Source: Acidimicrobiales bacterium (lineage in GTDB: Bacteria > Actinomycetota > Acidimicrobiia > Acidimicrobiales > MedAcidi-G1). From it: DNA of 64,000 bases. Where the stretch lies: the NCBI GenBank assembly GCA_022452145.1, contig JAKURY010000008.1, forward strand, positions 1 to 64,000, in the 5' to 3' direction. The position numbers were made by a program, and so were the translations under genes. The notes under the pieces were generated by a model. That model ran no database searches and was not told where the DNA came from. It worked only from the letters and a program-made list of their open reading frames with translations. Shown piece after piece: positions 17,410 to 29,981 of this stretch (its first letter is position 1; each line of letters begins with the position of its first letter).

Positions 17410-18729
17410 CTACATCTCCCGACCGGACTGTCGGCGCAGGCGGCGGGCGTACAGGTTGACCCCCCATCCGAGGAGCGGGTCGGGGACGTTCCGGTTCGGC
17501 CTTCCCCTGGCAAGCATGGCGTCGAGCAGGTCCGAGCCCTCGCCCCAGGCCATCTCGGCGATCAGCTTCCCGCAAATCGCTCCCCGGCTCAGCCCCGTGC
17601 CGTTGTGCACCAGGGCCCCGTGTATCCCGTCGGCCAGGCGACCGAAGACCGGCTCGCCGTTGCGGGCCATGGACAGCGCGCCGCCCCACGAATAGTCGAA
17701 GGGCACGTGTGCCAGGTCAGGGAACCGGCGTTCGAAGGCCACCCGGTGGGCCTGGGCGGCCCGACGCCGGTAGCGGCCTCCGGCCATCGAGTGGCGGCTG
17801 TAGCTGTAGACGTTGCGGACCAGGATGCGACCGTCGACAAGGCGTCTGACCGTCGTACCCGACGGTGCCGCCGGGATCACGCCCCAGGTGCGGTCGCCAC
17901 CGATCGACGCCGACTCCTCGTCGGTCAGGGGCCGTGTCATCGACCCCCAGGTGACGACCGGGATGAGGTGGTGGGCGTAGAACCCGAATCCGGCGGCAAA
18001 GCCGTTGTTGGCCAGCACGAGCTCCGGCGTGCGGATGGTGCCGCCGTCGGTGTGCAGTTCGTGGGGCGGGCCCTCGTCCAGCCACGTCACCGGGGTCTCC
18101 TCGTGGACGGTGACGTTTGTCGGCAGGAAGGCGGCAAGGCCCCTGCAGAGCGCTGCCGGCTGGAGCAGGACGGTTCCCGGCGTGTGCAGCGCCCGGTGGT
18201 AGTAGTCAATCCCCAGGCGGTCCACGGTGGCGTCCCGGTCGAGCAGCTCGTGGTCCTCGCCGATGAGGTCCAGGCTGGCGGCGAAGCGGTCCAGGTCCCG
18301 AGCACCCTGGTCGGTACAGGCAGCATGCGTCTTGCCCGCCCAGGTCCAGTCGCAGTCGATGCCGTGGGCCTTCACCGCTTCGGCGAGGTAGGCCTGCCCG
18401 GCACGGTTCAGGGCGATCTGCTGCCTCTCGTACGCGGCCGAGTCGGCGAATCCCTCTGAGCGGATGTTGTGGGCGTGGTCGATGGCGAAGCCCGACGACC
18501 GTCCGGCGGCGCTGTTGCCGATCCGGCCGGCCTCGACGAGGAGCACCCGCGCTCCGGGGCGCAGCTCGGCCAGCCTGCGAGCGGCGGCCAGGCCCGTGAA
18601 CCCGGCGCCGACCACCACGACATCGGCCTCCGTGGGGCCGATCAGCGGCGCAGCCGGCGGCACCTCGGGCAGCGTCTCGAACCAGCCGTTGTTCCGGTCG
18701 TAGCGGGGTAGGAGGGTGACGGCACCCAT
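17410..18729 (-). CDS. FAD-dependent amine oxidoreductase (DAO / PuuB-like)
   Basis: A 439-residue DAO-fold flavoprotein with the dinucleotide motif VVVGAGFTGLAAARRL near 38, the VEAGRIGNSAAGRSSGF stretch typical of gamma-glutamylputrescine oxidase (PuuB/OrdL) relatives, and a C-terminal HNGTGLSRG FAD-contact region. Such enzymes oxidise primary or secondary amines to an imine or aldehyde and H2O2. It lies 33 bases downstream of the PuuC-like aldehyde dehydrogenase, so the two probably act in sequence. D-amino-acid or D-hydroxyproline oxidation is an alternative. Confidence 0.85.
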   Translation of the reverse strand: MGAVTLLPRYDRNNGWFETLPEVPPAAPLIGPTEADVVVVGAGFTGLAAARRLAELRPGARVLLVEAGRIGNSAAGRSSGFAIDHAHNIRSEGFADSAAYERQQIALNRAGQAYLAEAVKAHGIDCDWTWAGKTHAACTDQGARDLDRFAASLDLIGEDHELLDRDATVDRLGIDYYHRALHTPGTVLLQPAALCRGLAAFLPTNVTVHEETPVTWLDEGPPHELHTDGGTIRTPELVLANNGFAAGFGFYAHHLIPVVTWGSMTRPLTDEESASIGGDRTWGVIPAAPSGTTVRRLVDGRILVRNVYSYSRHSMAGGRYRRRAAQAHRVAFERRFPDLAHVPFDYSWGGALSMARNGEPVFGRLADGIHGALVHNGTGLSRGAICGKLIAEMAWGEGSDLLDAMLARGRPNRNVPDPLLGWGVNLYARRLRRQSGREM

Positions 18730-18762
18730 GGCGGCGTCCTTCGTCCGATCAGCGTGCCGCTG

Positions 18763-20259
18763 TCAGGACAGGTCCATCCAGATGGTCTTCAGCTCGGTGT
18801 ACTGCTCGTGGGCGGCGATCGACTTGTCCCGGCCACCGAAGCCCGACTGCTTGAAGCCACCGAATGGCGTGGTGATGTCGCCCTCGCCGTAGCAGTTGAC
18901 GGCCACCGTGCCGGCCCGGATGGCCCGGGAGGCCAGGTGGGCCGTCCGCAGGTCGGTGGTGTGGATGGTGGCAGCCAGCCCGTAGTCGGTGTCGTTGGCG
19001 AGGCGTACGGCCTCCTCCGGGCTGTCGAAGGTGGTCACCGCCAGCACAGGTCCGAAGACCTCCTCGCGAGCCAGGCGGCTGGAAGGGTCGACGTCGGTGA
19101 ACACGGTGGGTTCGACGAACCATCCGCCGCTCTCCTCGCGTACCCGGTTGCCTCCGATGGCACACGTCGAGCCGGCCGAACGCGCGTCCGCTATGTGGCC
19201 CAGCACCTTGTCCATGTGGGCCTCCTCGATCATGGCCCCGACGGTCGTCTCGAAAACCAGGGGGTCGCCCACCACCCAGTCGCGGCTGCGTTCGGCAATG
19301 CGCTCCATGAGGTCGTCTTCGACCGAGCGCTGCACGATGAGCCGGGAGTTGGCGCTGCAGTTCTGGCCGCCGTTCCAGAAGATGCCCTCGCAGATGCTTG
19401 TCGCGGCGGCATCCAGGTCATCGGCATCGGCCATGACGATCACCGGGCTCTTGCCACCGCATTCCAGCAGCACCTCCTTGAGGTTGGAATCGGCCGAGTA
19501 GCGGAGGAAGTGGCGACCCACCTCGGTGGAGCCGGTGAAGGCGACGCAGTCCACGTCCGGGTGCAGGCCTATGGCCGCGCCGGCCGTCTCGCCGAAGCCG
19601 GGGACCACGTTCAGCACGCCGTCGGGGACCCCGGCCTCAACGGCCAGCTCGGCGATCCGGATGGTCGACATGGACGTCTGCTCGGCCGGCTTGACGACAC
19701 ACGTGTTGCCGGCGGCCAGGATGGGGCCGATCTTCCAGCCAGCCATCATCAGCGGGTAGTTCCACGGCAGCACGGCTCCGACCACGCCGACGGGCTCCCG
19801 TACCACCATGCCGACCTTGCCGGGGCCCGACGGCGAGAGCTGATCGTAGAGCTTGTCGCAGGCCTCGGCGTGCCAGCGCAGCGTCATGACCAGGTCCGGG
19901 ACGTCGATGCCCGAGCAGTCGCTGATCGGCTTGCCGGCCTCCAGCGTCTCGATGATGGCGAGCTCGTCGGTGTGGGCCTCGACCAGGCTGGCGAACCGCA
20001 GCAGGAGTCGCTTGCGGTCGGCCGGAGCCATGCGGCCCCACGGTCCCTCCTCGAAGGCGGTACGGGCTGCGGTGACCGCCCGGTCGACGTCGACGGCGTC
20101 GCACTCGGCTACCTGGGCCAGCTCGCGACCGGTGGCAGGGTCCAGGGTGGCGAAGGTCTTCCCGCTGGCGGCATCCACGCTGCGACCGCCGATGACGGCC
20201 CGGGTCGGCGGTCGCACGGAGGCGGCCAGGGCCGCCGGATCGGCGAGGTCGGTGGTCAT
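18763..20259 (-). CDS. Aldehyde dehydrogenase, PuuC-like
   Basis: An NAD(P)-dependent aldehyde dehydrogenase of 498 residues with PWNYP, Glu266 in LLECGGKSP and catalytic Cys301 in GQNCS. The end (GDITTPFGGFKQSG, GRDKS, then YTELKTIW) closely follows gamma-glutamyl-gamma-aminobutyraldehyde dehydrogenase PuuC, though relatives also oxidise betaine and 2-oxoglutarate semialdehydes. It overlaps the DapA-like gene by 4 bases and precedes the amine oxidase, so it probably removes the aldehyde made by that operon. Confidence 0.92.
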   Translation of the reverse strand: MTTDLADPAALAASVRPPTRAVIGGRSVDAASGKTFATLDPATGRELAQVAECDAVDVDRAVTAARTAFEEGPWGRMAPADRKRLLLRFASLVEAHTDELAIIETLEAGKPISDCSGIDVPDLVMTLRWHAEACDKLYDQLSPSGPGKVGMVVREPVGVVGAVLPWNYPLMMAGWKIGPILAAGNTCVVKPAEQTSMSTIRIAELAVEAGVPDGVLNVVPGFGETAGAAIGLHPDVDCVAFTGSTEVGRHFLRYSADSNLKEVLLECGGKSPVIVMADADDLDAAATSICEGIFWNGGQNCSANSRLIVQRSVEDDLMERIAERSRDWVVGDPLVFETTVGAMIEEAHMDKVLGHIADARSAGSTCAIGGNRVREESGGWFVEPTVFTDVDPSSRLAREEVFGPVLAVTTFDSPEEAVRLANDTDYGLAATIHTTDLRTAHLASRAIRAGTVAVNCYGEGDITTPFGGFKQSGFGGRDKSIAAHEQYTELKTIWMDLS

Positions 20260-21287
20260 GGGGTGCTCCTCTTCGAGTTGGTCCTGCCGACTCCGGCCCG
20301 GTCCGTCATGCGGACCAGCCAGTCCCGTTCGTCATCCCATTCCCGGAAGACCAGGCGGTCCCGGTCAACCCGGTTCGTGGGCAGCGTGGACAGGGCGGCA
20401 GTCAGGGCCACGCGACCCTGTCGGGTCATGGGCATCACCGGTCGGCGGCACGGGCCGATGGGCCGACCGACCATGTTGGCGGCGGTCTTGACCGCAGCGT
20501 TGTACTCGGCACCCACGGCGTTGTCCCAGAAGAACAGGTTGGCCGGGAGCATCCGGGACCAGAGCTCGAGTGCCTCGGCGTGACGGCCGGCGGTGAGGTG
20601 GTCGTAGAGGGCCACGCATTCGTGCGGCATGACGTTGGCCGCCCCCCAGATCCAGCCGGCGGCGCCGGCCATCAGGGCGTACGGGGCGAGAGGGTCGGCG
20701 CCGGCCAGGACGTGGCCACCGATCCCCAGCAACTGCTGGATGCGGATCAGGTCACCGGTCGAGTCCTTGATGTAGTCGATGTTCTCCATGGCGATGAGCT
20801 TCCGGTACAGGTCCGGGGTTATGTCGAAGCCGGACTGTGCCGGGATGTTGTAGAGCACGATCGGGGCGTCGATGGCCCGGGCCAGCTTCTCGTAGTGGTA
20901 CATGACGCCCCGCTCGAACGGGCCCTCGAAGTACGGTGGGAGGACCATCACGGCGCTGGCCCCCATGTCGATGGCCGCCCGTGAATTCCCAATGGCATCC
21001 ACGGTGGTGATTGCCGACGTCTGGCAGATAACCGGGATACGACCGGCCACCTGGTCGATACCGACCTCGAAGATGCGCTGCTTCTCGTCCGTCGACAGGA
21101 AGGCGAATTCCCCGGTACCGGCGGCCAGCACCAGGCCGTGGACGCCGGCTTCGATCAGGCTCTCGACATGGTCGCGGATGCGACCCTCGTCGATCGACTC
21201 ACCGGAGTCGTCGAACGGGCTGCTCATGGCGGCGCAGACGCCGTGGAGCAGCGGGAGTTCAGGGGCGGTTCCGTTCGTGGTCGTCAT
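20256..21287 (-). CDS. DapA/NAL-family lyase (dihydrodipicolinate synthase-like)
   Basis: A class I aldolase-fold lyase of 343 residues. Tyr146 (LYNIPAQSG) and Schiff-base Lys174 (YIKDSTGD) are conserved, and the usual GTTGE loop reads GTGE. About 40 extra C-terminal residues are Arg/Asp-rich. Relatives include 1-pyrroline-4-hydroxy-2-carboxylate deaminase, 5-dehydro-4-deoxyglucarate dehydratase and N-acetylneuraminate lyase. Its place between a methyltransferase and an aldehyde dehydrogenase argues against lysine biosynthesis and fits degradation of a hydroxyproline-like or sugar-acid intermediate. Confidence 0.88.
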   Translation of the reverse strand: MTTTNGTAPELPLLHGVCAAMSSPFDDSGESIDEGRIRDHVESLIEAGVHGLVLAAGTGEFAFLSTDEKQRIFEVGIDQVAGRIPVICQTSAITTVDAIGNSRAAIDMGASAVMVLPPYFEGPFERGVMYHYEKLARAIDAPIVLYNIPAQSGFDITPDLYRKLIAMENIDYIKDSTGDLIRIQQLLGIGGHVLAGADPLAPYALMAGAAGWIWGAANVMPHECVALYDHLTAGRHAEALELWSRMLPANLFFWDNAVGAEYNAAVKTAANMVGRPIGPCRRPVMPMTRQGRVALTAALSTLPTNRVDRDRLVFREWDDERDWLVRMTDRAGVGRTNSKRSTP

Positions 21288-21325
21288 CTCGTGCTCCTCG
21301 GGGTCCTCGATCGGCCGGTTCGGTC

Positions 21326-22873
21326 TCAGGTGACCAGGTCGGGCAGCTCGGCGTCACGTCGGGCCACGTACTCGTCGAGTTCGTCGCGTACGTCGTCGTC
21401 CAGGGCGGGTTCCTCGTACTCGTCGAGCATCTCACGGCACCGCGCCGTGGCCCGGTCCTCCGCGCTCCGCGCACCGTCGGCCAGCCACTGCTCGTAGTTG
21501 TCGCTGTTCATCATCTCGGGCATCGAGAAGGCGGTCTGGAAGTTGGCCAGCGTGTGGTTGGTGCCGAGGTGGTGTCCACCAGGTGGTACTTCGCGCATCG
21601 TGTCCAGCACCTCGTCCAGGTCGTCGAACGACACCCCACTGCCCAGGCGGTACATCATCTCCAGCTGCTCGCTGTCCAGTACCCACTTGGCGTACGACTG
21701 GCACATGGCACTCTCGAGGTAGCCGGTGGTCGACAGCACGAAGTTGGTTCCGGCCATCAGCACGCCGTACATGTTGCGTGCCGCCTCGTAGCCGGCCTGA
21801 GCGTCGACCATCTTCGAGCTCGTGCACGAGCCGCTGCAGCGCGACGGCAGCCGGTAGTGGCGAGCCATCTGCGCGGTCAGCAGGTTCATGTGGCAGATCT
21901 CAGGCGTACCGGCCTGGGGGGCTCCCGTCCGCATGGACACCGTGGACAACCACTGGCCGTAGAGCGCCGGCACCCCGGTCCTGACGAGTTGGGAGAACGC
22001 CACACCGGTTAGTGCCTCAATGTTGACCTGGATGACCGCTCCGACCGTGGAGGCCGGAGTGGAGGCACCACCCAGCACGAACGGGCTGAACAGGGTTGCC
22101 TGGTTGGCCCCGGCGAACACCCTGACGCTGTCCAACATGGTCTTGTCCCACACCAGGGGGGTGTTGGCGTTGGCCAGGCAGGTCATGACGGTGGTCTCCA
22201 GCACGAACTCCTGGCCGAACACGATCCCGGCCATGTACAGGCTGTCCTCGGCCCGCTCCATTGAGGTGACTGCGCCCATGAACGGCTTCGAGGAGTACTT
22301 CAGCAGGCTCTCGGTCATGTATAGGTGCCGCTTCGGAACGGGCACGTCCATCGGCTCGCAGACCACCCCGCCCGACATGTGCAGTGCCGGCGACAGGTGG
22401 TTGAGCCTGGTGAAGTTGCGGAAGTCCTCGAGGCTGCCCGGGCGTCGGACGCCGTCCAGGCCCAGGACGTAGGGGGCTCCGTAGGACGGGGTGAAGATCG
22501 TCTTCCCGTCGCCGACCGTGACGCTGTGGGCGGGATCGCGGGCCACCATCGTGTACGACGAGGGGGCGGTGCCCACGAGGGCCATCAGGTGCTCGCGGTC
22601 GATGCGCACGGTGGCGCCGTCGACACGGGCTCCCGCCGCCTTCCACATGGCCAGGGCGTCATCACACCGGAACTCGACGCCAACCTCCTCGATGACGTCC
22701 ATCGAGGCGTCGTGGATGGTCCGGACCTGGTCCTCGGTGAGCAGGTCCACCCAGGGGATCTTCCTCTCCAGCTCGGGCAGCCAGGTGCGGACCCGGGTAC
22801 GGCGCTGCGCGGCCCGGGCGTTGCGACCGCGGCGGACCCTGCCCGAAGCCTGGTCGACCCTCGTTTCCGTCAT
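21326..22873 (-). CDS. Trimethylamine methyltransferase family protein (MttB superfamily, non-pyrrolysine)
   Basis: A 515-residue MttB-superfamily protein. The segments PSYGAPYVLGLDG, GGASTPAS, NIEALTG and the HHLGTNHTL region are characteristic of this TIM-barrel corrinoid methyltransferase family. The frame runs without an internal TAG, so it lacks the pyrrolysine of true trimethylamine methyltransferase and belongs with MtgB-like betaine demethylases. No corrinoid protein or activating ATPase is nearby. It is the first gene of the minus-strand operon, starting at ATG 22873 after a GAGAGA site, and probably demethylates a quaternary amine or betaine. Confidence 0.9.
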   Translation of the reverse strand: MTETRVDQASGRVRRGRNARAAQRRTRVRTWLPELERKIPWVDLLTEDQVRTIHDASMDVIEEVGVEFRCDDALAMWKAAGARVDGATVRIDREHLMALVGTAPSSYTMVARDPAHSVTVGDGKTIFTPSYGAPYVLGLDGVRRPGSLEDFRNFTRLNHLSPALHMSGGVVCEPMDVPVPKRHLYMTESLLKYSSKPFMGAVTSMERAEDSLYMAGIVFGQEFVLETTVMTCLANANTPLVWDKTMLDSVRVFAGANQATLFSPFVLGGASTPASTVGAVIQVNIEALTGVAFSQLVRTGVPALYGQWLSTVSMRTGAPQAGTPEICHMNLLTAQMARHYRLPSRCSGSCTSSKMVDAQAGYEAARNMYGVLMAGTNFVLSTTGYLESAMCQSYAKWVLDSEQLEMMYRLGSGVSFDDLDEVLDTMREVPPGGHHLGTNHTLANFQTAFSMPEMMNSDNYEQWLADGARSAEDRATARCREMLDEYEEPALDDDVRDELDEYVARRDAELPDLVT

Positions 22874-22921
22874 CGGTCTCTCTGGCGGGCTCGCACCGTC
22901 GGATGCTTGCCATGATCGGTC

Positions 22922-24169
22922 GTGAAAGCAAGGGGGGCCGCTGCATTGCCGTGTTCCGCCGTCGCTGCGAGACTCCCGCCCGTGCCGGAGAGCCCTGACG
23001 ACCAGCAGCGCGCCGACAGGGGTGCGCTCGGCCACCTCCGGATTGCCGACTTCAGCCGGGTGCTGGCGGGGCCGGTGGCCACGATGGTGCTCGGCGACCT
23101 GGGGGCCGACGTGGTCAAGGTCGAGCAGCCGGGCGTGGGCGACGAGACCCGCACCTGGGGGCCACCCTGGTGGGGTGAGGGCGATGCGGCGACCAGCACC
23201 TACTACCTGGGCCTGAATCGCAACAAGCGCAGCATCGCCCTGGACCTCAGGGATGCCGACGACCTGGCGGTGGCCCGGCAGATCGCTCTCGGCGCCGACG
23301 TCGTGGTCGACAACTTCCGGGTGGGGACCATGGCCCGGTTCGGCCTCGACAGGGAGTCGCTGGTCGCCGGACGGCCCGACCTGGTCACCTGTTCCATAAC
23401 CGGCTTCGGCAGCACCGGCGAGGGTGCCCGCCTGGCCGGCTACGACTTCCTGGTCCAGGCCATGAGCGGGGTGATGTCCATCACCGGCGAGGCCGACGGA
23501 GAACCGACCAAGATCGGCTCAGCCATGGTCGACAACCTGACAGGCCTCTACGCGGTAATCGCAATCCTGGCCGCTATCGAGGAGCGCCGCCAGACCGGCC
23601 GCGGCCAGCACGTCGAGGTCTCGCTCATGAGCGCCGGGCTGGCAGGCCTGCTGAACGTGGGCTCCGGCCACGTGGTGGCCGACACCGATCCCGCCAGGCA
23701 GGGAAACCGCCACCCGTCGATCGTCCCCTACCAGCCGTACCGGACCGCCGACAGCGTGCTGGCCATCGCCGCGGCCAGCCCCGCCCTGTGGGAGAAGTTC
23801 TGTGTCCTGTTGGGCCGCGACGGCTGGCTGGCCGATGACCGCTTCGTCGACAACGGTTCCCGGATACTCCATGCGGACGAGTTGGAGGCCGAGGTCGAGG
23901 CCGTCCTGGCCACGGACTCCACGGATGCGTGGCTGGAGCGCTTGCGGGTCGCCGGGATCCCGGCCGGACGGATCAACACCGTGCGCGGCGCCTTCCTGGA
24001 AGCTGCCGAGTTGGGCCTGGATCCGGTCGACGTGCTGGACGACGGAGCGGGGGAGTTCCGGTCGGTACGGTCGCCCATCCGCATGTCGGCCACGCCCCCG
24101 ACGGTCCGACGACGACCACCCACCAACGACCAGCACGGTGTCGAGGTCCGTGCCGAACTGGACTCCTGA
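22922..24169 (+). CDS. CaiB/BaiF-family CoA transferase
   Basis: A class III CoA transferase of up to 415 residues. It has RIADFSRVLAGP, the GADVVKVE stretch, LNRNKRSIALDL, and Asp175 in AGYDFLVQAMSG at the position of the formyl-CoA transferase nucleophile. It moves CoA between carboxylic acids. GTG 22922 gives 20 residues before the conserved domain; GTG 22982 is an equally plausible start. It is divergent from the methyltransferase operon by 48 bases, so the two may share regulation, for example activating the carnitine- or betaine-like substrate. Confidence 0.88.
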   Translation: MKARGAAALPCSAVAARLPPVPESPDDQQRADRGALGHLRIADFSRVLAGPVATMVLGDLGADVVKVEQPGVGDETRTWGPPWWGEGDAATSTYYLGLNRNKRSIALDLRDADDLAVARQIALGADVVVDNFRVGTMARFGLDRESLVAGRPDLVTCSITGFGSTGEGARLAGYDFLVQAMSGVMSITGEADGEPTKIGSAMVDNLTGLYAVIAILAAIEERRQTGRGQHVEVSLMSAGLAGLLNVGSGHVVADTDPARQGNRHPSIVPYQPYRTADSVLAIAAASPALWEKFCVLLGRDGWLADDRFVDNGSRILHADELEAEVEAVLATDSTDAWLERLRVAGIPAGRINTVRGAFLEAAELGLDPVDVLDDGAGEFRSVRSPIRMSATPPTVRRRPPTNDQHGVEVRAELDS

Positions 24170-24210: not shown

Positions 24211-26133
24211 CTACGGCTCGATTACGTTCCAGAAGAGCGGGAAGTCGTTCAGGTTCCCGAAGAGGTCCAGTACCCGCCCGGTGTCGCCCGTGATGGTGGC
24301 CGATCCGGCATCCACCACCTCTGCGAACGGGGTGCCGCGGGCGATCATGTCCTCGAGCGACGCCCGGTCCCCGGTGACCGTGGCGTCCGGCGAGGCGTGG
24401 ACCCGGCCCGGGAGCGAGTGCAGCGTTCCGTTGGAGAGCTCTACCCGGACGGTGTCGGCGACGTCGGGGAGGACCCAGTCGATCGCCAGGTGGCCCAGTG
24501 GCACTACGGCAGGACCGTCGAGGCGGACGGCCAGGAAGTCGAAGATCTGCTGGAGGCTCATGCCCCGGAGCACCTCCTCCTTGGGGCGCTGGATGGCTGG
24601 GACGTCGATGGGCCCGTTCCGGAGTTCCTGGGCGCCGGTCAGGTAGATGTCGCGCCACGGGCCGGACTCGGCCCGGTAGCCCAGCTGTTCGAAGGCATCG
24701 GCTTGGAGCAGGCGGGCCTCTTCGCACGTCGGGTCGGCGAACACGGCGTGGCGGAGCACCTCGGCCACCCAGCGGTGGTCGCCGGCCTCGTACGAGGCCC
24801 GGGCCTTTTCCAGGAGGCTGTCCATCCCACCCATGAAGCCGAGGTAGCGCTTCCCAGCCTCGACCGGCTCGTAGGGGTCGAGGCTGGACGGGTGCCCGTC
24901 GTAGAAGCCGAGGTACCGCTGGTACACGGCCCGGACGTTGTGGCTGACAGTGCCGTAGTAGCCGTGGCAGAGGTAGTCGTCCCAGAGGCCGGGTGGCAGG
25001 TCGATGGAGGCCGATATCTCGTTCGGCGTCAGGCCCCTGTTGGCCAACCGCATGGCCTCGTCGTGGAGCCAGCGGTAGAGGTCCCGTTGGCGGGTGAGGT
25101 AGCCGTGGACCGCCTCGGCGCCCCAGTGGGGCCAGCCGTGGCTGGCGAACACCACGTCGGTGACGTCGCCCCAGCGGTCCATGGCCTCGTCGATGTAGCG
25201 GCTCCACATGAGGGCGTCGCGCACCAGCGCGCCGCGCAGGGTGAGCACGTTGTGCATGGTGCCGGTGCAGTTCTCGGCCATGCAAAGGGCACGGTGGTCC
25301 GGGAAGTAGAAGTGCATCTCGGCCGGCGCCTCGGACTCCGGGGTGAGCTGGAACTCGATCCGGACGCCGTCCAGCACCAGCTCCTGTCCGGTCTCGGTGA
25401 TCTCGATGGTCGGGGGTACCAGGGCCGAGGAGCCGGTGGGTACCCCCTTGCCCAGGCCCTGGTCGACGTGGCCCTGCTCGTCGGCCGGCAGGAGCATTCC
25501 GAATTGGTAGGTGGCCCGGCGACCCATGGCCGGGGCGGCGACCACGTTCTCGGCGACCGCCTCGTGGAGGAAGCCTTCCGGGGCCACCACCGGTACCTCG
25601 CCGGCGTCTACGCGGGCCCGGTCGACCACGCCCAGGATGCCGCCGTAGTGGTCGACGTGGGAGTGGGTGTAGATGACAGCGGTGACCGGCCGCTCGCCGA
25701 GGTGCTCGGTGACCAGCTCGTAGGCCGCCGTGGCCGTCTCGGTGGTGGTCAACGGGTCGATGACCACCCACCCCTCGTCCCCCCGGATGAACGTGACGCT
25801 GGAGGTGTCGAAGCCCCGCACCTGGTAGAAGCCGTCGAGGACCTCGTATAGGCCGTGCTGGGCGTTGAAGCCTGCCTGGCGCCACAGCGACGGGTTGACG
25901 GTGTCGGGGCAGGGGCCGTGCACGAAGTCAGACGCCGAGAGGTCCCAGGTGACGGGCTGCCAGGGGTTGGGGACCAACTTCTGGATGACCGGTTCGGTTC
26001 TCGTGGCGATGAAGCCCCGGGCCACGTTGGCGGCGTCGGTGCCGTCGTCGGGTGGCAGGGTCGCTGCGAAGGCAGCGATGTCGGCCCGGGCGTGCCCGCT
26101 GGCCGGCTTGCGGGCGCGTGGCTCGTCGGTCAT
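24211..26133 (-). CDS. Alkyl/aryl-sulfatase, metallo-beta-lactamase fold (SdsA1-like)
   Basis: A 640-residue linear primary alkylsulfatase. The zinc-binding THSHVDHYGG lies at about 156-165, with the second-site MAENCTGTMHN, an alpha-helical dimerisation domain, and a C-terminal SCP2-like lipid-binding domain (about 520-640). SdsA1-type enzymes release sulphate and an alcohol from alkyl sulphate esters such as dodecyl sulphate. There is no obvious signal peptide, unlike the secreted Pseudomonas enzyme, so it may act in the cytoplasm. It may supply sulphur or carbon from surfactant-like or sulpholipid compounds. Confidence 0.9.
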   Translation of the reverse strand: MTDEPRARKPASGHARADIAAFAATLPPDDGTDAANVARGFIATRTEPVIQKLVPNPWQPVTWDLSASDFVHGPCPDTVNPSLWRQAGFNAQHGLYEVLDGFYQVRGFDTSSVTFIRGDEGWVVIDPLTTTETATAAYELVTEHLGERPVTAVIYTHSHVDHYGGILGVVDRARVDAGEVPVVAPEGFLHEAVAENVVAAPAMGRRATYQFGMLLPADEQGHVDQGLGKGVPTGSSALVPPTIEITETGQELVLDGVRIEFQLTPESEAPAEMHFYFPDHRALCMAENCTGTMHNVLTLRGALVRDALMWSRYIDEAMDRWGDVTDVVFASHGWPHWGAEAVHGYLTRQRDLYRWLHDEAMRLANRGLTPNEISASIDLPPGLWDDYLCHGYYGTVSHNVRAVYQRYLGFYDGHPSSLDPYEPVEAGKRYLGFMGGMDSLLEKARASYEAGDHRWVAEVLRHAVFADPTCEEARLLQADAFEQLGYRAESGPWRDIYLTGAQELRNGPIDVPAIQRPKEEVLRGMSLQQIFDFLAVRLDGPAVVPLGHLAIDWVLPDVADTVRVELSNGTLHSLPGRVHASPDATVTGDRASLEDMIARGTPFAEVVDAGSATITGDTGRVLDLFGNLNDFPLFWNVIEP

Positions 26134-27599: not shown

Positions 27600-28142
27600 A
27601 TGCGCGCGATGCACGTCACGGACGAGGTCCTGGGGCTGTTCGCGGCACGCGGTGGGAACACCTACGCCGAGTCGGTGAGCATGGAGCAGCACGCCTTGCA
27701 GGCCGCGGCCCTGGCCCGCGCCGCCGGCGCGCCTGACGCACTCGTGCTGGCTGCCCTGCTCCACGACGTCGGGCACTTCCTGGACGAACCCGACTCGGAG
27801 TTCGGGGTCACCGACCACGGAACCTCGGGTGGGGCCTGGCTGGCCGAGCGGTTCGTCGCCGCTGTCAGCGAGCCCGTTCGCCTGCACGTGGAGGCCAAGC
27901 GGTTCCGATGCTTCGTGGACCCGGGCTATGAGGACGAGTTGAGCCCGGCCTCGGTCGGGACGCTGAAGCTCCAGGGTGGCCCCATGTCGGCTGCCGAGGC
28001 CGAGGCGTTCGAGGCCGAGCCGTTTGCCGCCGACGCCCTGGCGGTGCGGTCGTTCGACGACGGGGGCAAGGTCGCTGGCCTGGCGATACCGGCCCTGGAT
28101 GGATGGCGCCCACTCCTGGACGCACCGGAGGTCCGTAGATGA
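27600..28142 (+). CDS. HD-domain mixed-valent diiron oxygenase, PhnZ/TmpB-like
   Basis: A 180-residue HD-fold protein with the hallmarks of PhnZ-type oxygenases rather than phosphohydrolases: Tyr22 and Glu24 before His31 (SMEQHALQAA), the HD pair His55-Asp56 (LLHDVGH), a following DHG...AWLA, HVEAKRF (substrate Lys) and SFDDGGK with the last metal Asp. PhnZ and TmpB cleave the C-P bond of alpha-hydroxylated aminophosphonates with O2. The 3' end overlaps a 2-oxoglutarate dioxygenase gene by 4 bases, exactly the PhnY/PhnZ or TmpA/TmpB pairing. A CAGAAT box 7 bases before ATG 27609 makes that a possible start. Confidence 0.82.
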   Translation: MRAMHVTDEVLGLFAARGGNTYAESVSMEQHALQAAALARAAGAPDALVLAALLHDVGHFLDEPDSEFGVTDHGTSGGAWLAERFVAAVSEPVRLHVEAKRFRCFVDPGYEDELSPASVGTLKLQGGPMSAAEAEAFEAEPFAADALAVRSFDDGGKVAGLAIPALDGWRPLLDAPEVRR

Positions 28143-29245
28143 CCGGGTTCACGGTCTTGGCGCTGGAGGCCGACGTGCTGACCGTGGAGCTGGCGGACGG
28201 ACCAGCCAGGTTCCATGCCATCTGGCTGCGGGACAACGCCCGTGACGACGCCTCGCGTGATGCCTCCAACGACCAGCGCCTGTTCGACGTGTCCGAGCTC
28301 CCGGACGAGGTTGCCATATTGGCTGCCGAGGTGGTGGACGGCCACCTGTGCGTGGAGTTCGCTCCGGACGGTGCGGTCAGCACCTTCGACGTCGGGTGGC
28401 TGGAGGCCCACCGGTACGACGGAGGGGGGTGCCGGTCGCAGGGGGCCGTTCCCTGGCTGGCGGCGGGGTTCGACCCGCACCGCCTGGCGTGGTCACGACA
28501 GGACGATCCGGCTGCCAGGTCGGCGGCGACCACGGCGCTCGTGCGGGACGGCCTGGCCATCGTCGACGGCCTTGCCGGTGGCTCCGATGGGGTGGGTCCG
28601 TCCATCTCCGACGTCGCCGGAATCTGGGGCCCGGTCCGGGAGACCAGCTACGGCGAGGTGTTCCACGTGCGGGCCGAGGCCGATCCGGTGAACCTGGCGT
28701 TCACACCGAGGGCTCTGAACGTCCATACCGACAACCCGTACCGCCGACCGGTGCCCGGCTTCCAGCTGCTGCACTGCCTGGTTGCCAGCAGAACCGGTGG
28801 GGTGACCGTGCTTGTCGACGGCTTCAGAGCCGCTGAGTCGCTGCGGGTCGAGGACCCGGCGGCCTTCGACATGCTGGCCGGCCACCGGGTGCCGTTCCGG
28901 TGGCGGGGCGACGGCTTCGACCTGAGGAGCCGTTCGGCGGTCATCGAGGTGGACGACCGGGGGGTGGTGCTGGCCGTCCACTACAACAACCGCTCGGCCG
29001 CGCCGTTCGACCTGCCATACGACGAGATGTCCGGCTTCTACGAGGCCTACCGCACCTTCGCCCGGCTGCTGCACCGTCCGGAGCTGGAGTTCCGGTTCAA
29101 GCTGTTGCCCGGCGAGTGCCTGGTGTTCGACAACGAACGGATCCTGCACGGCCGGGAGGGCGAGTCCGACTCGGAGCGGTATCTCCAGGGTTGCTACATC
29201 GATCGGGACTGGGTCCACGGGCGGGTCGGCGCACTCCCCGACTGA
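28139..29245 (+). CDS. Fe(II)/2-oxoglutarate dioxygenase, gamma-butyrobetaine hydroxylase/TmpA-like
   Basis: A 368-residue protein. The N-terminal DUF971-like domain (IWLRDNARDD) seen in gamma-butyrobetaine hydroxylase is followed by a TauD fold. The iron ligands His and Asp lie in NVHTDNPYR and the distal His in NERILHGREG. The same architecture occurs in TmpA, which hydroxylates 2-trimethylaminoethylphosphonate. Coupled to the HD oxygenase by an ATGA overlap, it would install the hydroxyl that the partner needs for C-P cleavage. Hydroxylation of a non-phosphonate betaine is the main alternative. Confidence 0.85.
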   Translation: MTGFTVLALEADVLTVELADGPARFHAIWLRDNARDDASRDASNDQRLFDVSELPDEVAILAAEVVDGHLCVEFAPDGAVSTFDVGWLEAHRYDGGGCRSQGAVPWLAAGFDPHRLAWSRQDDPAARSAATTALVRDGLAIVDGLAGGSDGVGPSISDVAGIWGPVRETSYGEVFHVRAEADPVNLAFTPRALNVHTDNPYRRPVPGFQLLHCLVASRTGGVTVLVDGFRAAESLRVEDPAAFDMLAGHRVPFRWRGDGFDLRSRSAVIEVDDRGVVLAVHYNNRSAAPFDLPYDEMSGFYEAYRTFARLLHRPELEFRFKLLPGECLVFDNERILHGREGESDSERYLQGCYIDRDWVHGRVGALPD

Positions 29246-29258
29246 GGTCCTGCACAAG

Positions 29259-29299
29259 TATGACCTGTGTAACACGGAATATGTGATACACAGGTCATA
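29259..29299. promoter_or_regulatory. Palindromic operator of the toxin-antitoxin unit
   Basis: A perfect 12-base inverted repeat, TATGACCTGTGT (29259-29270) and ACACAGGTCATA (29288-29299), has a 17-base AT-rich spacer. It ends two bases before the antitoxin ATG at 29301. Arc/MetJ-type antitoxins typically bind such repeats to repress their own operon. The region is strikingly AT-richer than its surroundings. Confidence 0.75.
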
Positions 29300-29300
29300 T

Positions 29301-29528
29301 ATGGCGAACCTGACCCTGGCCGTCGACGACGACCTCCTCCACAGGGCCCGCGTGCGTGCCGCGGAGCAGGGAACCTCGGTGAACGCCGTGGTCCGCGACC
29401 TCCTCACCGCCTATTCGGCGGCCGACCGGGTGGGAGCGACCCGTCGGCGGCTCGTCGCCCTGTCGATCTCCTCGGCCTCCGGCTCCGGACGTCGGTCGGT
29501 TGTCGGCGGCCCGGAGCCCCGGGCCTGA
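29301..29528 (+). CDS. Antitoxin, ribbon-helix-helix (VapB/FitA-like)
   Basis: A 75-residue protein starting MANLTLAVDDDLLHRARVRA, the beta-strand plus helix of a ribbon-helix-helix antitoxin, with EQGTSVNAVVRDLL as the second helix. The C-terminal half is basic and Ser/Gly-rich and would wrap the toxin. ATG 29301 is chosen because the operator ends just before it; GTG 29283 would lie inside the repeat. It precedes the PIN toxin gene by 27 bases. Confidence 0.85.
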   Translation: MANLTLAVDDDLLHRARVRAAEQGTSVNAVVRDLLTAYSAADRVGATRRRLVALSISSASGSGRRSVVGGPEPRA

Positions 29529-29555
29529 CGTGGACCGCCACCGGAGCCAACCCGG

Positions 29556-29981
29556 GTGAGCCGGTCCTTCCTGGACGCCTCGGTCCTCGTCCGGCTGTTC
29601 GACGACGACGAGCCTGTCCTCCAGGCGGCGGCGCGGGCCCTGGTCGGTGACGTCGACGGCCCGGTCCTTGTGACCTCGGCCCCGGTGCTGGCCGAGTTCC
29701 ACGAGGCGGTGACGTCGGGGATGGCCCGACCGCTGGCCCCGCTGGTGGCACGCCGGGTGGTGGCCGAGCTGGCCGACCTGACCGTCGTCGCGGCCGACGC
29801 CGCCCTGGTGCTGGCTGCCACCGACACCGCCGACGAGTGCGGCCTGGCCCTCCGGGACGCCCTCACCCTGGAGGCTGCAGCCGTGGGCGGGTGCGACCGG
29901 GTGCTCACCGAGGCCCTCCCACATGGCACCATCGTCCGCGGCCTCCTAGTGGAGGACCCGGCCGAGAGGAGCGACCCATGA
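29556..29981 (+). CDS. PIN-domain ribonuclease toxin (VapC-like)
   Basis: A 141-residue PIN domain with the acidic metal site Asp7 (SFLDASVLV), Glu47 (VLAEFHEA), Asp101 (LRDALTLEAA) and Asp114 (GCDRVLTEA). VapC toxins cut tRNA or rRNA when released from their antitoxin. Start is GTG 29556. The stop overlaps the epoxide hydrolase ATG by 4 bases, so an ordinary metabolic gene is coupled to a toxin cistron. Confidence 0.87.
   Translation: MSRSFLDASVLVRLFDDDEPVLQAAARALVGDVDGPVLVTSAPVLAEFHEAVTSGMARPLAPLVARRVVAELADLTVVAADAALVLAATDTADECGLALRDALTLEAAAVGGCDRVLTEALPHGTIVRGLLVEDPAERSDP

Follow-up and report, generated by a model that had tools for sequence, protein, structure and literature searches.

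The window analysed here, a 64,000-nucleotide stretch of a genome of the order Acidimicrobiales, carries two overlapping genes that we predict to encode a divergent oxidative phosphonate pathway of the TmpAB type, with a probability of roughly 0.8. The pair has a high likelihood of working like TmpAB, and the products of the predicted reaction would probably be phosphate and glycine betaine. As the scores miss the curated cut-offs, we do not claim strict membership of the TmpA and TmpB equivalogs. The initial annotation had described an HD-domain protein overlapping by four bases a gamma-butyrobetaine-hydroxylase-like Fe/2-oxoglutarate dioxygenase, and had read this pairing as the signature of both PhnY-PhnZ and TmpA-TmpB. 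The overlap is as described and the dioxygenase belongs to TauD (PF02668); the TmpAB half of the signature stands, but the PhnYZ half does not, since a GBBH-like partner marks TmpAB only. Coordinates are collected in Table 1.

Table 1. Coordinates of the gene pair and of neighbouring features in the window
Feature	Position	Strand	Remarks
Predicted C-P bond cleaving HD-domain mixed-valent diiron oxygenase, TmpB-like	27600..28142	+	180 aa; profile, PDB and fold matches, invariant ligands
Predicted Fe(II)/2-oxoglutarate hydroxylase, TmpA-like (TauD/GBBH-like)	28139..29245	+	368 aa; profile, PDB, residues, tree, fold search
ATGA start/stop overlap of the HD and TauD genes	28139..28142	+	4 bases
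YxE gate formed by Tyr22 and Glu24, with one residue fewer than YxxE	27663..27671	+	HD protein
YNNRS motif (Tyr282-Ser286), corresponding to phosphonate contacts Asn287/Arg288 of TmpA	28982..28996	+	Dioxygenase
APC permease	31025		
MttB homologue	21326-23035	-	Only methylated-amine gene among the window genes annotated
Operon with the MttB homologue	17410-23035	-	
Alkyl sulfatase	24211-26133	-	
FitA-like antitoxin and PIN-domain toxin	29283-29981		

Both genes are coding and under purifying selection, synonymous change far exceeding non-synonymous change: set against five relatives, the HD gene gave pN/pS values of 0.18-0.27 and the dioxygenase gene values of 0.23-0.36. In the 2.08 Mb genome, a single good match was found for each. 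The HD gene was present in six of the seven genus members sampled, with the dioxygenase gene adjacent every time, and 13 of 17 genomes of the family encoded an HD relative (own genome counted in both cases). Across the order, a relative at E 1e-10 or better was encoded in 120 of the 397 genomes sampled.

All the motifs listed for the HD protein in the initial annotation are present, namely Tyr22, Glu24, His31, the HD dyad at 55-56, HVEAKR (residues 96-101) and FDDGGK (residues 152-157). Enzymes of the PhnZ/TmpB type have the ligand set H...HD...H...H...D, with a YxxE gate before the first ligand histidine (PMC8177086), and the six diiron ligands are all found here (His31, His55, Asp56, His73, His96 and Asp153). 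An alignment of 38 diverse relatives has 22 invariant positions, which include every diiron ligand as well as Tyr22, Glu24, Lys100, Arg101 and Lys157. The gate is spaced YxE, one residue short of the PhnZ/TmpB form, a variant that is frequent among HD relatives. In profile searches, the protein scored 185.5 bits for Phn-HD (TIGR03276, cut-off 214.6), 142.8 bits for the TmpB equivalog (NF049941, cut-off 300) and 136.9 bits for PhnZ1, each below the curated cut-off; because the TmpB score misses 300, we call the protein TmpB-like rather than TmpB. The PDB sequence search retrieved TmpB (6npa, E 5.7e-31) and, less closely, PhnZ (4mlm, E 5.8e-22), and no other solved relatives. The AlphaFold model (mean pLDDT 94.7) matched PhnZ/TmpB with TM 0.82-0.89 and Z 23.6-27.4, compared with Z 10.9 for myo-inositol oxygenase (MIOX) and Z below 10 for hydrolases. 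The predicted fold is that of PhnZ/TmpB, a far better match than inositol oxygenase; TmpB and PhnZ tie in these scores, and the model does not separate one from the other. Clustering with inositol oxygenases or phosphohydrolases, the outcome that had been named as counting against the pathway, was not observed: the protein groups with PhnZ/TmpB in sequence, HMMs and predicted fold, and its identity as an inositol oxygenase or HD phosphohydrolase was rejected on sequence and predicted fold.

The dioxygenase is nearest to TmpA and groups with it, apart from carnitine-linked homologues. A GBBH-like N-terminal domain was detected weakly in addition to the TauD domain. The protein scored 368.8 bits against the TmpA equivalog model (NF049936, cut-off 400), and is named TmpA-like because it falls short of that cut-off, and 292.9 bits against carnitine_bodg (TIGR02409, cut-off 414.75). 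In the PDB search, TmpA (6npb, E 7.9e-85) was followed by human BBOX (4.4e-41) and DfmD (5e-31), and Foldseek, for which E-values alone were used (the TM and rmsd reported were poor), ranked the matches in the same order. The iron ligands HxD...H are His196, Asp198 and His337. Aromatic residues Tyr171, Phe175, Phe188 and Tyr353 fall at the cage positions of TmpA and BBOX, Phe188 standing where TmpA has Tyr. The phosphonate contacts of TmpA are N187, N287 and R288 (PMC9296572), and their aligned equivalents are Asn185, Asn284 and Arg285. Most HD-paired relatives have all three contacts. Every HD-paired relative tested has the Arg285 equivalent, and that of Asn284 is Ser in some of them (L012, L016, L019, L045 and L058). 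A divergent plasmid pair (L163) reads DSPR at this site, while homologues for which no HD partner is annotated or known read SQH, NAH or ANF, and human BBOX reads NNA; one of the records compared (L162) has no gene annotation there. In the tree, a 98/94 branch has the window dioxygenase, TmpA, all HD-paired sequences and L163 on one side, and the homologues with no HD partner annotated or known on the other, where carnitinyl-CoA dehydratase or class II aldolase genes adjoin several of them. A carnitine hydroxylase identity was rejected on residues, HMM scores and tree.

The matches to carnitine_bodg and to the GBBH-like N-terminal domain would fit a gamma-butyrobetaine/carnitine-type hydroxylase overlapped by chance by a phosphohydrolase with no relation to it. 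This explanation is highly improbable and largely refuted: TmpA scores far above in both HMM and PDB comparisons, the tree and the phosphonate-site residues set the dioxygenase apart from homologues whose neighbours are carnitine or aldolase genes, the HD protein has the predicted PhnZ/TmpB fold, and the HD-TauD linkage recurs across phyla, in either gene order or in fused form. Members of the window clade have the HD gene first and TauD second, in most cases overlapping by 4 bases, whereas most other actinobacterial and proteobacterial pairs run TauD then HD. The two domains are fused into one 549-aa ORF in L009/L043, and TauD-HD forms a single ORF in about 22 loci of Kitasatospora, Streptomyces, Nocardioides and relatives. 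The bifunctional fusion of L102 (4936-6510) is about 525 aa long, and about 20 Streptomycetaceae/Nocardioides loci are similar to it. The L102 protein exceeds the cut-offs for TmpA and Phn-HD; near its gene is one for a substrate-binding protein weakly resembling PhnS, and near the related L068 one for a PhnT2-like ATPase, both of the 2-aminoethylphosphonate ABC transporter type. Among TauD/HD pairs outside the window, a PhnX-like gene also occurs nearby. A TauD-HD pair on a Pseudomonas aeruginosa plasmid (L163:2450-5256) adjoins genes for a choline ABC binding protein and choline dehydrogenase and, with its altered DSPR site, possibly has a different substrate. TmpB-type genes were already known from the ocean, at an abundance like that of phnJ (PMC8316502).

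HD proteins with the same type of partner cluster on the tree more than expected (13 changes vs 25.6 when shuffled), and the neighbours of the window clade there are TauD-paired proteins from elsewhere in the order, with modest support (94/79). The HD relatives without a TauD neighbour that were checked (L028, L029, L031 and L127) have a PhyH-type dioxygenase partner, the type of the PhnY* family. A PhnYZ pathway proper, for 2-aminoethylphosphonate, would suit the resemblance of the modelled HD protein to PhnZ (Z 27), but it is very unlikely, given that TmpB is nearer than PhnZ in sequence; we reject it because the partner is a TauD/GBBH-like protein, not PhyH.

For the TmpAB-type pathway, we infer 2-trimethylaminoethylphosphonate as the substrate and glycine betaine as the product. 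The TauD protein, with Fe(II), O2 and 2-oxoglutarate, would hydroxylate the C1 carbon of this substrate to give the (R)-1-hydroxy derivative, the trimethylammonium group being held in the aromatic cage of Tyr171, Phe175, Phe188 and Tyr353 and the phosphonate by Asn185, Asn284 and Arg285. The Fe(II)/Fe(III) pair of the HD protein, carried by its six ligands, would then bind the hydroxyphosphonate; Tyr22 would leave the iron, O2 would bind, and the C-P bond would be cleaved to release phosphate and glycine betaine. The degree of N-methylation of the substrate is not readable from sequence, and the pair might act instead on another aminophosphonate (2-aminoethylphosphonate, its N-mono- or dimethyl forms, or a larger quaternary phosphonate), releasing the corresponding glycine derivative. 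Divergence beneath the equivalog cut-offs, the YxE gate, the equal fold scores for PhnZ and TmpB and Phe188 in place of the TmpA Tyr are all compatible with such a substrate, which we nevertheless consider unlikely: the window dioxygenase retains the NNR site and the aromatic cage found in TmpA, an enzyme described as highly substrate-specific (PMC10574752), and PhyH is the partner of other HD relatives in the order.

In the neighbourhood of the pair across the genus, no flanking phosphonate gene and no co-transcribed phosphonate transporter was found. The genes present there encode a CoA-transferase, an alkyl sulfatase, an acyl-CoA dehydrogenase, the HD and TauD proteins, an alpha/beta hydrolase, an APC permease and an LLM oxidoreductase; automatic clustering of neighbours was muddied by reverse-strand ORFs and served for gene order alone. 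The alkyl sulfatase of the window, conserved near the pair in the genus, has metallo-beta-lactamase, dimerisation and C-terminal domains. The FitA-like antitoxin and PIN-domain toxin lie just after the dioxygenase, and a PIN gene occurs in several relatives too.

The genome as a whole encodes two PhnCDE-type importers, with the PhnD family above cut-off at two places in the profile search and PhnC at 330.6 bits vs a cut-off of 266.1. These ABC importers lie on contigs C10 and C13 of the genome (G000; loci L142 and L143), with a ROK-kinase-like ORF near each, which an HMM confirmed at L142 only. There are also six MttB-family and five FAO_M (dimethylglycine/sarcosine-dehydrogenase-type) matches, together with OpuAC-type betaine-binding matches. 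The MttB and FAO_M matches are spread over contigs C8, C9, C19, C22, C27, C30 and C40, several side by side. At L144:2105-7635, an MttB gene, a sarcosine/dimethylglycine-dehydrogenase-like gene and a DddP-like gene (DMSP lyase family, below cut-off) stand in a row. The richness in methylated-amine genes that the initial annotation had ascribed to the window belongs to the genome, the window having the MttB homologue alone among its annotated genes, and it suggests that this 2.1 Mb genome is specialised in methylated amines. With two importers and the quaternary-amine demethylation genes, the organism could plausibly take up the substrate and use glycine betaine, through genes elsewhere in the genome that are not tied to the locus of the pair.

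The MttB homologue of the window is non-pyrrolysine, as it has no in-frame stop. It shares an operon with DHDPS-family, aldehyde dehydrogenase and DAO oxidase genes. The operon resembles one for hydroxyproline(-betaine) catabolism, and glycine-betaine demethylation is a less likely reading because these partners match the hydroxyproline-degradation set.

Outside the window, relatives of the pair are linked to a third activity. Fifteen genomes, drawn from four families of the order, have a single stop-free frame that spans matches to Phosphodiest (PF01663), HD and TauD; in L027, the phosphodiesterase part begins in another frame. The PF01663-HD-TauD fusion ORFs are about 750-830 aa long (L020, L022, L024, L030, L115-L123, L125 and L149-L156). 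A separate search with a 767-aa fusion recovered seven over nearly full length, the query's own genome included, the others being 48-91% identical to the query. The nearest solved relatives of the phosphodiesterase domain are nucleotide pyrophosphatase/phosphodiesterases. On a Labrenzia plasmid (L157:2465-5048), separate overlapping genes are annotated as TauD, HD and alkaline phosphatase family protein, and similar genes lie beside the pair in L103 (6580-7407) and L099; across these loci, the alkaline-phosphatase/NPP-type gene stands directly after TauD-HD in Labrenzia and close by in Shimia. In L021 and L091, an alpha/beta hydrolase gene precedes the HD oxygenase, with a PF01663 phosphodiesterase close by, and no dioxygenase was seen near the HD oxygenase. 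We found no description of a fusion of phosphodiesterase, HD and TauD in the open literature, which is weak evidence of novelty.

The three-activity fusions and the Labrenzia operon suggest that the phosphonate may first be released from an ester. Tentatively, the TmpAB-type enzymes of this order could take part in a three-activity route, in which a nucleotide-pyrophosphatase-type phosphodiesterase would free the quaternary phosphonate from an ester such as a phosphonolipid headgroup or its glycerol ester, after which the HD and TauD activities would oxidise it to phosphate and a betaine. Such a route would reside in one polypeptide in several families, the genus of the window having retained linkage of the last two activities alone.

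The biochemistry of TMAEP oxidation in the literature reviewed comes from one organism, Leisingera caerulea. A clearly related but divergent pair is now placed in an actinobacterial genus whose small genome abounds in genes for quaternary-amine demethylation, so the phosphonate could be a source of phosphorus as well as of carbon and nitrogen. From the repeated fusions and the link to a phosphodiesterase comes a testable hypothesis on the form in which this phosphonate is encountered in nature.

Among known systems, TmpA-TmpB of Leisingera caerulea (PDB 6npa-6npd) also combines a TauD/GBBH-like hydroxylase and an HD diiron oxygenase in one operon, and has iron-site, cage, phosphonate-site and diiron residues in common with the window pair, which is about 40% identical to TmpA and 37-38% to TmpB. 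The window pair differs in its YxE gate, its actinobacterial origin, its scores beneath the NCBIfam equivalog cut-offs and the absence of a linked phosphonate transporter, and runs HD-TauD where most relatives, the roseobacter ones included, run TauD-HD. PhnY*-PhnZ of bacterium HF130_AEPn_1 and PhnY/PhnZ1 of Gimesia likewise work in two steps, hydroxylation and then C-P cleavage by an HD diiron enzyme, as proposed here, and the PhnZ-type HD fold is very similar to the fold predicted for the window protein. Their hydroxylase is of the PhyH type and their substrate is 2-aminoethylphosphonate or methylphosphonate, as against the trimethylated form inferred for the window. PhoF of Fonsecaea multimorphosa (PMC10574752), a fused PhnY-PhnZ, demonstrates that the two activities can be joined, as they are in some relatives of the window pair; it is a fungal fusion of the PhnYZ type, whereas the window genes are separate and of the TmpAB type. 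Finally, gamma-butyrobetaine hydroxylase (human BBOX, TIGR02409) has the fold, iron site and aromatic cage in common with the window dioxygenase but lacks the phosphonate-site Arg (NNA) and an HD partner, both of which the window dioxygenase has.
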